From the NCBI RefSeq assembly GCF_902832885.1, contig NZ_CADFDK010000011.1, positions 1 to 64,000 of the forward strand: a stretch of DNA of 64,000 nucleotides. The letters run 5' to 3'. Position numbers and translations under genes: made by a program. Shown piece by piece: positions 36,691 to 43,163 of the stretch; positions within the stretch are counted from its first letter, which is position 1; every line of letters begins with the position of its first letter. Source of the DNA: Burkholderia seminalis DSM 23518. GTDB lineage: Bacteria > Pseudomonadota > Gammaproteobacteria > Burkholderiales > Burkholderiaceae. The notes beneath the pieces are model-generated. The model was not told where the DNA came from. It ran no database searches and was given only the letters and a program-made list of their open reading frames with translations.

Positions 36691-37722
<1,032 letters not shown>

Positions 37723-37759: not shown

Positions 37760-37765
37760 TATGAT
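37760..37765 (+). promoter_or_regulatory. -10 element of the small RNA between hemB and engB
   Basis: TATGAT at 37760-37765, part of TATATGATAG, puts a start near 37771-37773. That is exactly where the first hairpin begins. No good -35 hexamer is seen at 17 nt (GGTGAT), so an activator or an extended contact may be needed. Confidence 0.55.
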
Positions 37766-37770
37766 AGCGA

Positions 37771-37876
37771 TCGAGCGGCACGCGTCGCGTGCAGCTCCCC
37801 GCTTCTCCTCCCTGAGCGGGTGCCTGTCGTTTTTCGATTAGGCTGTTTGACCCGCCGTCCAACGGCGGGTTTTTTT
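37771..37876 (+). ncRNA. Candidate trans-acting small RNA with anti-Shine-Dalgarno loop
   Basis: This is a stand-alone transcription unit of about 105 nt on the + strand between two minus-strand genes. Three stem-loops follow each other. Hairpin 1 is 37773-37797 (GAGC/GCTC and GCACG/CGTGC). Hairpin 2 is 37798-37820, whose 6-bp stem CCCGCT/AGCGGG displays the 11-nt loop TCTCCTCCCTG. A linker with a T-rich stretch (GTTTTTCGATT) follows. Hairpin 3 is 37850-37870, ACCCGCCGT/ACGGCGGGT, with a seven-T tail: an intrinsic terminator. The exposed UCUCCUCCCU is complementary to Shine-Dalgarno (AGGAGG) sequences, a known design of CU-rich-loop regulatory RNAs in other bacteria. No reading frame fits. 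Alternatives are a hemB/engB antisense leader or an unrelated structural RNA. Confidence 0.7.
37850..37876 (+). terminator. Intrinsic terminator of the small RNA
   Basis: A perfect 9-bp stem (37850-37858 with 37862-37870), 3-nt loop, then T run to 37876. On the opposite strand there is no T tract, so it is + strand specific. Confidence 0.88.
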
Positions 37877-37942
37877 ATGAGCCGGCCGAATCCGCAGGCG
37901 CCATCAGGTGCGCGCCGCCGATCCCGGCCGCGCGTTGCCCGA

Positions 37943-38602
37943 TCATTGTGCTACAGGCTCGCCTTTTTCGTCGGCGACGGACGGCCGCACCCAGCTCTCG
38001 ATCAGCTCATGTGCCTCGTCGAGCCCCGTGCGCTTCAGCGCGGAGAACAGCTGGACCGTCAGCTTGCCCTGGACGCCCTGGTCGCGATACGCATCGAGCC
38101 CCTTTTGCGTGGTCCGCAGCGCGTTGATGCTTTCCTGGCGCGTCAATTTGTCGCACTTGGTCAGCAGCGTGTGGATCGGCTTGCCGGTCGGCGTGAACCA
38201 CTCGATCATGCGGCGATCGAGGTCGGTCAGCGGACGGCGCGAATCCATCATCAGGATCAGGCCGCAGAGCTGCGAACGCGTCGCGAGGTAGGACGACAGC
38301 AGCATCTCCCAGTGCGCCTTGGCGGCGCCGGGCACTTCCGCATAGCCGTAGCCGGGCAGGTCGACGAGGTTCGCGACGGGCTCGGCGGCCGGGCCGACGG
38401 AGAAGTAGTTGATATGCTGCGTGCGGCCGGGCGTCTTCGACGCGAAGGCCAGCCGCTTCTGGTTGCACAGCACGTTGATCGCCGTCGACTTGCCGGCATT
38501 CGAGCGGCCCGCGAACGCGATTTCCGGCTGGACCGTCGGCGGCAGGTCGCGCAGATGGTTGACGGTCGTGTAGAAGCGGGCTTGATGGAGCAGAAAGGCC
38601 AT
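37943..38602 (-). CDS. engB: Ribosome biogenesis GTP-binding protein EngB (YsxC/YihA)
   Basis: EngB is a small essential GTPase needed for late 50S assembly. The 219 residues show G1 GRSNAGKST (about 32-40), G3 DLPGYGYA, G4 TKCDKL and the G5-like region near the C-terminus. It begins [21 protein letters not shown], the usual opening. It is transcribed away from the cytochrome c4 gene, and a 12-nt palindrome lies in the shared promoter region. In E. coli the homologue also neighbours a small RNA gene (Spot 42), which is an intriguing positional echo. Confidence 0.96.
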
Positions 38603-38693: not shown

Positions 38694-38816
38694 CGGCGGT
38701 TTTACCGAAGGCCACCCGGCGCCTGCCTCGCGCTTTTATGTGGCTTCTGCGGTAGACTGGTCGCCGTCGTTTTTTGCAGAACCTCAAATTCCCACAAGAC
38801 GAAACAGGGTGTGCGA

Positions 38817-39470
38817 ATGAATCGACTGTGCAAGTCTCTGATGGTGCTTCAGGTTGCAGCAGGGTTCGTAGGTTTCGTAGCGGAGGCAAACGCGGCGGAT
38901 GCGGCAAAGCCGGATCTCGACCGCGGCAAGGCGATTGCCGGGCAGGTCTGCGCGTCGTGTCACGGCGCCGACGGCAATAGCGCATCGGCCAGTTTCCCGA
39001 AGCTGGCCGGCCAGCATCCCGAATATCTGGTCAAGCAACTGAACGACTTCAAGACGCAGCCGGGCGCGAAGGGGCCGGCGCGCAACAACGCGGTGATGGT
39101 CGGATTCGCGAGCGCGTTGAGCGCGGACGACATGCGCAACGTCGCCGCGTACTACGGGTCGCAGACGACGAAGCTCGGTACCGCACGCGACGCGGCGACC
39201 GTGCCGGTCGGCCAGAAGATCTATCGCGGCGGCATCGCGGAGAAGGGCGTCCCTGCCTGCGCGAGCTGTCACGGGCCGACGGGGCAGGGGATGCCGGTCC
39301 AGTATCCGCGTCTGTCGGGGCAGTGGGCCGATTACACGGTCGCGCAGTTGACCGCGTTCCAGCAGGGTGCCGGCGCGCGCAACAACAACGAGGCGATGCA
39401 TCAGATCGCCACGCGCCTGTCGGACAACGAGATCAAGGCCGTCGCGGATTACATCGCGGGCCTGCGTTGA
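38817..39470 (+). CDS. Di-heme cytochrome c4-type protein
   Basis: This is a periplasmic electron carrier. I choose ATG 38817 after AGGG; an in-frame GTG at 38811 adds two residues. A signal peptide of about 27 residues ends near AEANAADA. Two heme c sites, CASCH at 45-49 and CASCH at 148-152, lie in two similar halves, the mark of cytochrome c4 (217 residues). Each half also carries candidate axial methionines (VMVGFASAL; EAMHQIATRL). It is directly followed by the resB-ccsB heme-attachment machinery and probably feeds electrons to a terminal oxidase. Confidence 0.94.
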   Translation: MNRLCKSLMVLQVAAGFVGFVAEANAADAAKPDLDRGKAIAGQVCASCHGADGNSASASFPKLAGQHPEYLVKQLNDFKTQPGAKGPARNNAVMVGFASALSADDMRNVAAYYGSQTTKLGTARDAATVPVGQKIYRGGIAEKGVPACASCHGPTGQGMPVQYPRLSGQWADYTVAQLTAFQQGAGARNNNEAMHQIATRLSDNEIKAVADYIAGLR

Positions 39471-43066: not shown

Positions 43067-43163
43067 TGTAACGGGCGGGCGAACCGGGCGTCGAACGGCG
43101 CACGACGGGCCGGGTCGAACGCTCATGAAGCATGCGCGCCGCGCATGCAGGAGGAACAGCACG

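Follow-up and report, generated by a model that had tools for sequence, protein, structure and literature searches.

Between hemB and engB, two genes of the reverse strand, a stretch of Burkholderia seminalis DSM 23518 DNA carries a short unit on the forward strand. The locus raises the questions of whether this unit is a small-RNA gene of its own, to which RNAs it is related and on what its exposed CU-rich loop would act. The stretch analysed, here called the window, is 64,000 nt long (contig NZ_CADFDK010000011.1, positions 1 to 64,000).

A small-RNA gene between hemB and engB

The features of the locus are the following.

36691-37689, reverse strand: hemB, the divergent neighbour (open reading frame, Pfam ALAD)
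37760-37765, forward strand: −10 box TATGAT, read from the sequence
37772-37876, forward strand: anti-hemB/ncS04-type small RNA, predicted 105-nt transcript (fold z −6.14)
37773-37797, forward strand: GC-rich hairpin 1, from the fold, almost entirely beyond the Rfam model
37796-37878, forward strand: match to RF02837 anti-hemB, model positions 1-81 of 81
37798-37820, forward strand: hairpin 2, from the fold, with stem CCCGCU/AGCGGG round the CU-rich loop
37806-37813, forward strand: exposed loop UCCUCCCU, the complement of AGGGAGGA
37822-37843, forward strand: hairpin 3, from the fold
37849-37876, forward strand: intrinsic terminator, with its hairpin at 37849-37871 and T7 (U7 in the RNA) at 37870-37876
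37943-38602, reverse strand: engB (yihA/ysxC), the convergent neighbour and landmark of the slot (open reading frame, Pfam MMR_HSR1)
38811-39470, forward strand: cytochrome c gene with two haem sites (c4-like), beyond engB (Pfam Cytochrom_C)

The −10 box, together with the length published for ncS04, served to place the 5′ end of the RNA, and the T-run its 3′ end. The minimum free energy of 37772-37876 is −54.5 kcal/mol, compared with −34.9 ± 3.2 in 200 dinucleotide shuffles, none of which folded as low. The promoter box, the three hairpins and the terminator with seven T had all been proposed in a sequence-only reading of this DNA; sequence reading and folding placed every one of them at the positions above, with a fold far better than that of shuffled sequence. 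The terminator was also recovered by a terminator scan (2 sites per 401 bases versus 0.8 ± 1.0 in shuffles). A simple sigma-70 scan of the window locus retrieved no −35/−10 pair at standard spacing. A TATNAT box is present at most 75 nt upstream of the Rfam start at 52 of 59 loci of family f1, which we take to be Burkholderiaceae, a count that has no chance control. The RNA would be transcribed from its own promoter and end at its own terminator.

Each base of UCCUCCCU is unpaired with a probability of 1.0 in the folding ensemble. The loop had earlier been read as UCUCCUCCCUG, of which the UCCUCCCU portion is indeed fully unpaired, while the remainder is partly or wholly paired. Hairpin 2 would display UCCUCCCU as a preformed single-stranded seed, and hairpins 1 and 3, together with the U-tailed terminator, may provide stability and a landing site for Hfq.

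The Rfam scan of the whole window identified the RNA as RF02837, anti-hemB (Burkholderia RNA 7), at 85.5 bits against a cut-off of 49.5. A tRNA gene at 152-224 was the sole other Rfam match at cut-off in the window. A permissive scan of the intergenic region added 16 weak matches, all far under their cut-offs. The gene is thus already known, and the earlier idea of a previously undescribed gene does not hold; 'orphan' is apt in that it is a separate gene of its own, but it was already catalogued in Rfam. Its orthologue, ncS04 of B. cenocepacia J2315, is described in the part of PMC5688073 used here as a 105-nt RNA of replicon 1 detected by dRNA-seq and 3′ RACE, included among the Northern panels and flanked by BCAL0264 and BCAL0265 in the arrangement <- -> <-. 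The window RNA has the same arrangement, the same length of 105 nt (as predicted here) and a full-model match. Compared with the RF02837 model, from which Rfam has left out hairpin 1, nothing essential differs. The original proposal of a stand-alone small RNA, about 105 nt long and with its anti-Shine-Dalgarno loop exposed, is therefore confirmed in sequence, and the RNA has a published orthologue.

The RF02837 model omits nearly all of hairpin 1 (37773-37797), a hairpin that the length of the published transcript nevertheless implies. Four weaker RF02837 matches (27-34 bits) were retrieved elsewhere in the same genome. One, at locus L004, was rejected as a further copy, being an RF02278 double-hairpin RNA (positions 1501-1562 of that locus, 73.8 bits) beside the RNase P RNA; L002, L003 and L005 were likewise rejected, being without an Rfam match at cut-off and possibly due to chance. 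In this genome polA is on contig C2 and the RNA on C11, so that the window RNA has no adjacent polA.

Conservation of the loop and its candidate targets

It had been suggested to check whether the loop stays CU-rich while the stems covary, and the alignments returned just this: the stems compensate and UCCUCCCU is nearly fixed. The sequences of 26 of the 59 Burkholderiaceae loci, chosen for diversity (alignment A1) and aligned with MAFFT alone, have no variation in six of the eight loop columns and almost none in one more. Hairpin 3 and the loop of the terminator are variable in the same alignment, and the sequence of hairpin 1 varies freely among relatives. RNAalifold found 8 of 13 pairs in the Burkholderiaceae alignment changed on both sides yet still paired. 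A wider alignment of the window's order and other orders (A3, which comprises 52 chosen loci with 55 matches at E ≤ 5e-4) has 6 of 7 modelled pairs of hairpin 2 and 5 of 6 of the terminator changed on both sides. Of its cells, 98.1% are paired, compared with 83.4% for shuffles and no more than 60.1% for slid controls, and 0 of 500 shuffles were as high; this figure is favoured by an alignment fitted to the model that had found its rows.

Two covariance models were used, both covering hairpin 2 and the terminator only and leaving out hairpin 3. R1 was built from the 26 Burkholderiaceae sequences only. The gammaproteobacterial loci of A3 were ones that R1 had already matched, and because of this neither the 55-RNA covariation test nor the other model, the mixed model R2, is independent of R1. 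New stems were found round the old loop, for instance CCUCGUUU/AAACGAGG at L058 and GAUCUGCUC/GAGCAGAUC at L138. Exceptions in the loop itself are UCCUUCCU at L043 and one missing C at L061. A MAFFT alignment of 34 hairpins (A4) was set aside, its left arms being misplaced, and the counts of one hairpin extraction that took terminators in some rows were not used. Pairing-based hairpin lists do not count as covariation evidence, because pairing was required for inclusion; from one of these lists, 13 weak or misplaced rows had been removed beforehand.

The complement of this fixed, exposed loop, AGGGAGGA, is a strong ribosome site. As a seed, UCCUCCCU would pair with purine-rich ribosome sites of the type AGGGAGG(A), and pairing would lower the translation of a set of mRNAs. 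By analogy with sX13, anti-hemB most likely blocks the ribosome sites of several mRNAs. In the part of PMC3771888 consulted, sX13 represses mRNAs through C-rich loops that act on G-rich motifs near start codons; loop and motif were both required, and joint changes restored no control, so that pairing is not cleanly proven even for sX13.

A different role for the loop, serving a protein or another RNA (as an Hfq sponge or a decoy) and not ribosome sites, would agree with the U-rich tail and with the Hfq co-purification of ncS04, cited in the consulted parts of PMC5688073 and PMC4603805. Binding of Hfq through a U-rich tail would, however, not need a fixed UCCUCCCU, and the complementarity of the loop to a strong ribosome site would point to ribosome sites, so that we consider such a role improbable. 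For the window RNA the U7 tail is observed, and Hfq binding is known only as cited for the orthologue.

Assuming that ribosome sites are blocked, candidate targets can be named at different strengths. Genes of the window with strong ribosome sites, namely msrP, cutA and ompW, had been put forward as possible targets. The AGGAGG of msrP is present at 43149-43154, but its complement to the loop region is shorter than 7 nt (6 nt by eye), and the ompW ribosome site, GGAGGAGA, offers 8 nt; a special role of the window genes as targets is not supported by msrP and ompW. The best complement found, 13 nt and perfect, is at the ribosome site of a PF10118 gene of the same genome (C20:5099; positions 1501-2420 of locus L223), which encodes a predicted metal-dependent hydrolase. 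Its 21-base start region was counted in 23 of the 61 Burkholderia genomes listed, the gene behind it having been examined only in this genome and in L304, and the site has degenerated in Paraburkholderia and in a number of named Burkholderia. A porin of the same genome is a further candidate, with a complement of 9 nt. The complement scans near start codons had as their sole control the reversed pattern, which is unlike a ribosome site, and they do not support enrichment. The main text of PMC5688073, as far as it was available, names no target at its four mentions of ncS04; CU-rich unpaired stretches are marked there in seven candidates.

A separate motif, TCAGGGAGGAACGGATG, recurs in nine Burkholderia genomes by a count of the listing. 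It opens a 202-aa frame in L318, which by eye we take to be esterase-like, and only short frames in L311, L313 and L316.

In the same part of PMC5688073, qPCR detected no significant change of ncS04 across the seven conditions of Table 2. Since the published levels are stable, a constitutive buffer would fit better than a stress switch.

Gene order in the window's order and the polA/engB slot elsewhere

The RNA is widespread in the window's order, which we take to be in effect the betaproteobacteria; its class is, on the same assumption, the gammaproteobacteria of GTDB. Within the family, 356 of 398 genomes were matched at E ≤ 1e-4, 317 of them above the RF02837 cut-off. The other 42 had no match, and the 20 listed of these are all of 2.3 Mb or less. 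Across the order, 271 of 399 genomes were matched at E ≤ 1e-5 (245 above cut-off), from 115 of 158 genera, and 46 of 51 families carry the RNA, as counted from the family labels in the match listing. The Burkholderia name of RF02837 is too narrow for this spread.

Neighbours were examined at 105 loci of the order (RNA coordinates for L064-L109 are approximate to a few bases). A divergent hemB upstream and/or a convergent engB downstream was present at 57 of 59 Burkholderiaceae loci and at 39 of 46 other loci, with hemB as the divergent neighbour in 56 and 36 of them, respectively. At L086, L095, L101 and L103 the RNA is directly 3′ of engB but runs in the same direction, and at L058, L062, L098, L102 and L107 neither hemB nor engB was found within the examined stretch. 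Tandem duplicates of the RNA were seen at L102 (1317-1582), L098 (1322-1590) and, outside the order, L168 (3012-3282).

Outside the window's order, too, the 3′ side of engB is occupied. E. coli K-12 has the arrangement polA > spf (Spot 42) > < yihA (= engB), and the tblastn match of the window EngB in that genome ends at yihA; the same polA-spf-engB order is given for Aliivibrio in the part of PMC3295665 consulted. An EngB search matched 158 of 185 genomes of the class, and 40 engB loci of other orders were hand-picked from the better-scoring places among the matches listed. Of these, 34 have a cytochrome c gene beyond engB and 17 have polA on the side of the slot. When these slots were read, the CU-loop hairpin was recognized in RNAs there as well. 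A fixed rule, which asked for a stem of 6 or more, a CU-rich loop containing UCCC(U/A) and a terminator further downstream, retrieved the hairpin and terminator in 14 of 41 slots, E. coli included in the 41, compared with one match in 436,113 control bases, itself on the opposite strand of slot L127. The other 27 slots, that of E. coli among them, had no such hairpin and terminator by this rule. The window RNA has both, with a CCUCCC(U)-type loop, 3′ of engB. The rule was written after the slots had been read, and R1 was therefore taken as the independent test.

Applied to 183 genomes that belong to the class but not to the window's order, R1 retrieved 40 matches in 31 genomes at E ≤ 1e-4 per genome. 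Thirty of them, in 26 genomes, are no more than 1 kb 3′ of engB and/or polA; both genes were placed by protein search among the matches listed, and some genomes have no listed place. All but one of the 30 are convergent with engB and/or run along with polA, the exception being in G797. There, at L127, the RNA has kept its place 3′ of engB but runs the other way with respect to it. Matches within 1 kb of engB or polA, among the places listed, were 32 of 50 at E ≤ 1e-3 and 40 of 91 at E ≤ 0.05; those away from both were 10 of 40, 18 of 50 and 51 of 91 at 1e-4, 1e-3 and 0.05, respectively. Of the ten at the strictest threshold, one (G895:C15) is beside polA and two (G956 and G946) are beside the cytochrome gene. 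The other seven, including a tandem pair in G932, had no engB, polA or cytochrome gene in the stretch read. Around that pair (L168), hemB was also absent from the stretch read.

The E-values of R1 on slot RNAs of other orders go down to 2.2e-10 per genome, and the slot RNA L142 exceeds the RF02837 cut-off, at 51.7 bits. In slot RNAs of other orders the stem CCCGCU/AGCGGG is found again, and together with it the loop CCUCCCUGA; many of these RNAs contain the loop core, and many have a C-rich loop on hairpin 3. Beyond the class, R2 retrieved weak matches only, in a set of 120 genomes of the phylum (best E 5.2e-5, in G1045).

Unrelated CU-rich-loop RNAs might have arisen in this slot separately, in betaproteobacteria on the one hand and other orders on the other. 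C-rich loops do recur in unrelated RNAs, 6C and Scr3202 score weakly on slot sequences, and a direct similarity between the window RNA and sX13 is undetectable. Such convergence is nevertheless quite improbable, given that a model built from Burkholderiaceae alone detects slot RNAs in other orders, for the most part at a single place and with a single orientation, that the same stem and loop recur together, and that L142 surpasses the anti-hemB cut-off.

The kinship of anti-hemB with slot RNAs of other orders is well supported. The family would be at home on the 3′ side of engB, where its gene has hemB as the other neighbour in the window and polA in many genomes of other orders. This kinship was overlooked in the sequence-only reading, which had correctly recognized a small-RNA gene, its exposed loop and the value of covariation. 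No paper linking anti-hemB to RNAs of the polA/engB locus was found in the open-access literature, the scope of the search, with subscription papers and preprints outside it, and the kinship appears to be what is new. We consider it probable that the window RNA is a vertically inherited, trans-acting small RNA, the betaproteobacterial branch of an old family of the polA/engB locus that would block ribosome sites through its loop.

Relation to sX13, ErsA and Spot 42

Three further RNAs have been described from the same slot or beside polA. The sX13 RNA of Xanthomonadaceae resembles anti-hemB in having C-rich-loop hairpins and a terminator, and its gene is 3′ of polA on the same strand; it differs in carrying C-rich motifs in three loops and in being reported, in the part of PMC3771888 consulted, as Hfq-independent. 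The sX13 model (RF02232) matched 6 of 185 genomes of the class at E ≤ 1e-4. Two matches, in G947 and G795, are above cut-off and adjoin polA; three, in G953 (48.3 bits), G865 (37.9) and G919 (36.9), are at polA and have engB or the cytochrome gene on their opposite side, engB itself not being found in G865; the sixth, in G905, is elsewhere. A single RNA of G865 was matched by both R1 (1.3e-6) and the sX13 model (1.4e-5).

ErsA (Pseudomon-1) shares with anti-hemB its place between polA and engB (PMC8575079). Its model (RF01719) matched 2 of 185 genomes: G944, at 121.3 bits and 3′ of polA, and an RNA of G953, at 37.1 bits. Unlike anti-hemB, the sole copy above cut-off (L157) has no CU-loop hairpin when read by eye. 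In G953, four tandem slot RNAs are present between polA and engB (L159, 2150-2886), of which one was matched by the anti-hemB and ErsA models and another by the sX13 and anti-hemB models.

None of the G865 and G953 RNAs reaches the Rfam cut-off for sX13, ErsA or anti-hemB (cut-offs in Rfam are 50 bits for sX13, ErsA and RF02278, 80 for Spot 42 and 47 for 6C). When these RNAs were scanned permissively against 4,227 families, the best were anti-hemB (3.2e-8), sX13 (7.4e-8), ErsA (1.9e-5) and ar14 (2.4e-5), followed by ar7, tfoR, 6C, Scr3202 and Spot 42 (E 0.004-0.06). As 6C and Scr3202 have C-rich loops too, the resemblance may be partly generic. With filters off, R2 gave 19.8 and 15.3 bits on sX13, 12.7 on ErsA and 10.3 (E 0.13) on Spot 42 (spf). 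The window RNA matched neither sX13 nor ErsA at E ≤ 10 in the permissive intergenic scan, and its own genome had no match to either model at E ≤ 1e-4. Because the window RNA itself matches neither, the tie of anti-hemB to sX13 and ErsA runs through intermediates.

These comparisons point to a probable kinship of anti-hemB with sX13 and a possible one with ErsA. The relation to Spot 42 (RF00021) is positional only: it occupies the same slot in the same orientation in E. coli K-12, but has no significant similarity, and its model had no match in the window at cut-off or in the permissive intergenic scan. Two further families have similar loops at most. The RF02278 double-hairpin (toxic) sRNAs ncS03, ncS05, ncS27 and ncS62 of the same genus have CU-rich loops complementary to ribosome sites, according to the part of PMC5688073 consulted, but the window RNA scores 15.8 bits on their model, far under its cut-off, and they are encoded at other loci. 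The 6C RNA (RF01066) has C-rich loops on two hairpins in the model consensus; at 22.1 bits the window RNA is not a member and at most works alike.

More tentatively, one ancestral small-RNA gene between polA and engB in the beta-/gammaproteobacterial ancestor may have given rise to anti-hemB (with hemB now on the side of polA), sX13 in Xanthomonadaceae, ErsA in Pseudomonas and Spot 42 in enterics and vibrios, each staying beside engB or polA. The CU-rich ribosome-site loop would then be ancestral and lost in the last two. We regard this scenario as possible, somewhat short of an even chance.

That the RNA or its promoter acts in cis, by interfering with the divergent hemB transcript, is suggested by the Rfam name and by the frequency of a divergent hemB in the order, but is very improbable, as the predicted transcript is clear of the hemB frame (start 37689) and directed away from it, antisense overlap would require a hemB mRNA start beyond 37772, other orders retain the RNA with polA on that side, and antisense pairing offers no explanation for a loop fixed across genera.

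The preferred reading, a locus-bound family acting through its loop, bears on a question posed by the authors of sX13, who, in the part of PMC3771888 consulted, asked whether small RNAs are encoded at polA in other bacteria too. For the polA/engB locus the answer is yes in at least 26 of the 183 genomes of the class outside the window's order, and the polA locus is now linked to an RNA named after Burkholderia. Sequence comparison gives good support to the view that this 'Burkholderia' RNA is a member of a locus-bound family that spans its order and extends into many other orders of the class. If this is true, it would be a deep base-pairing RNA family with a traceable locus, in which targets, the use of Hfq and changes of the loop could be followed over long times. 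It also suggests that function should be sought in what all hosts share, and not in Burkholderia biology or in hemB.
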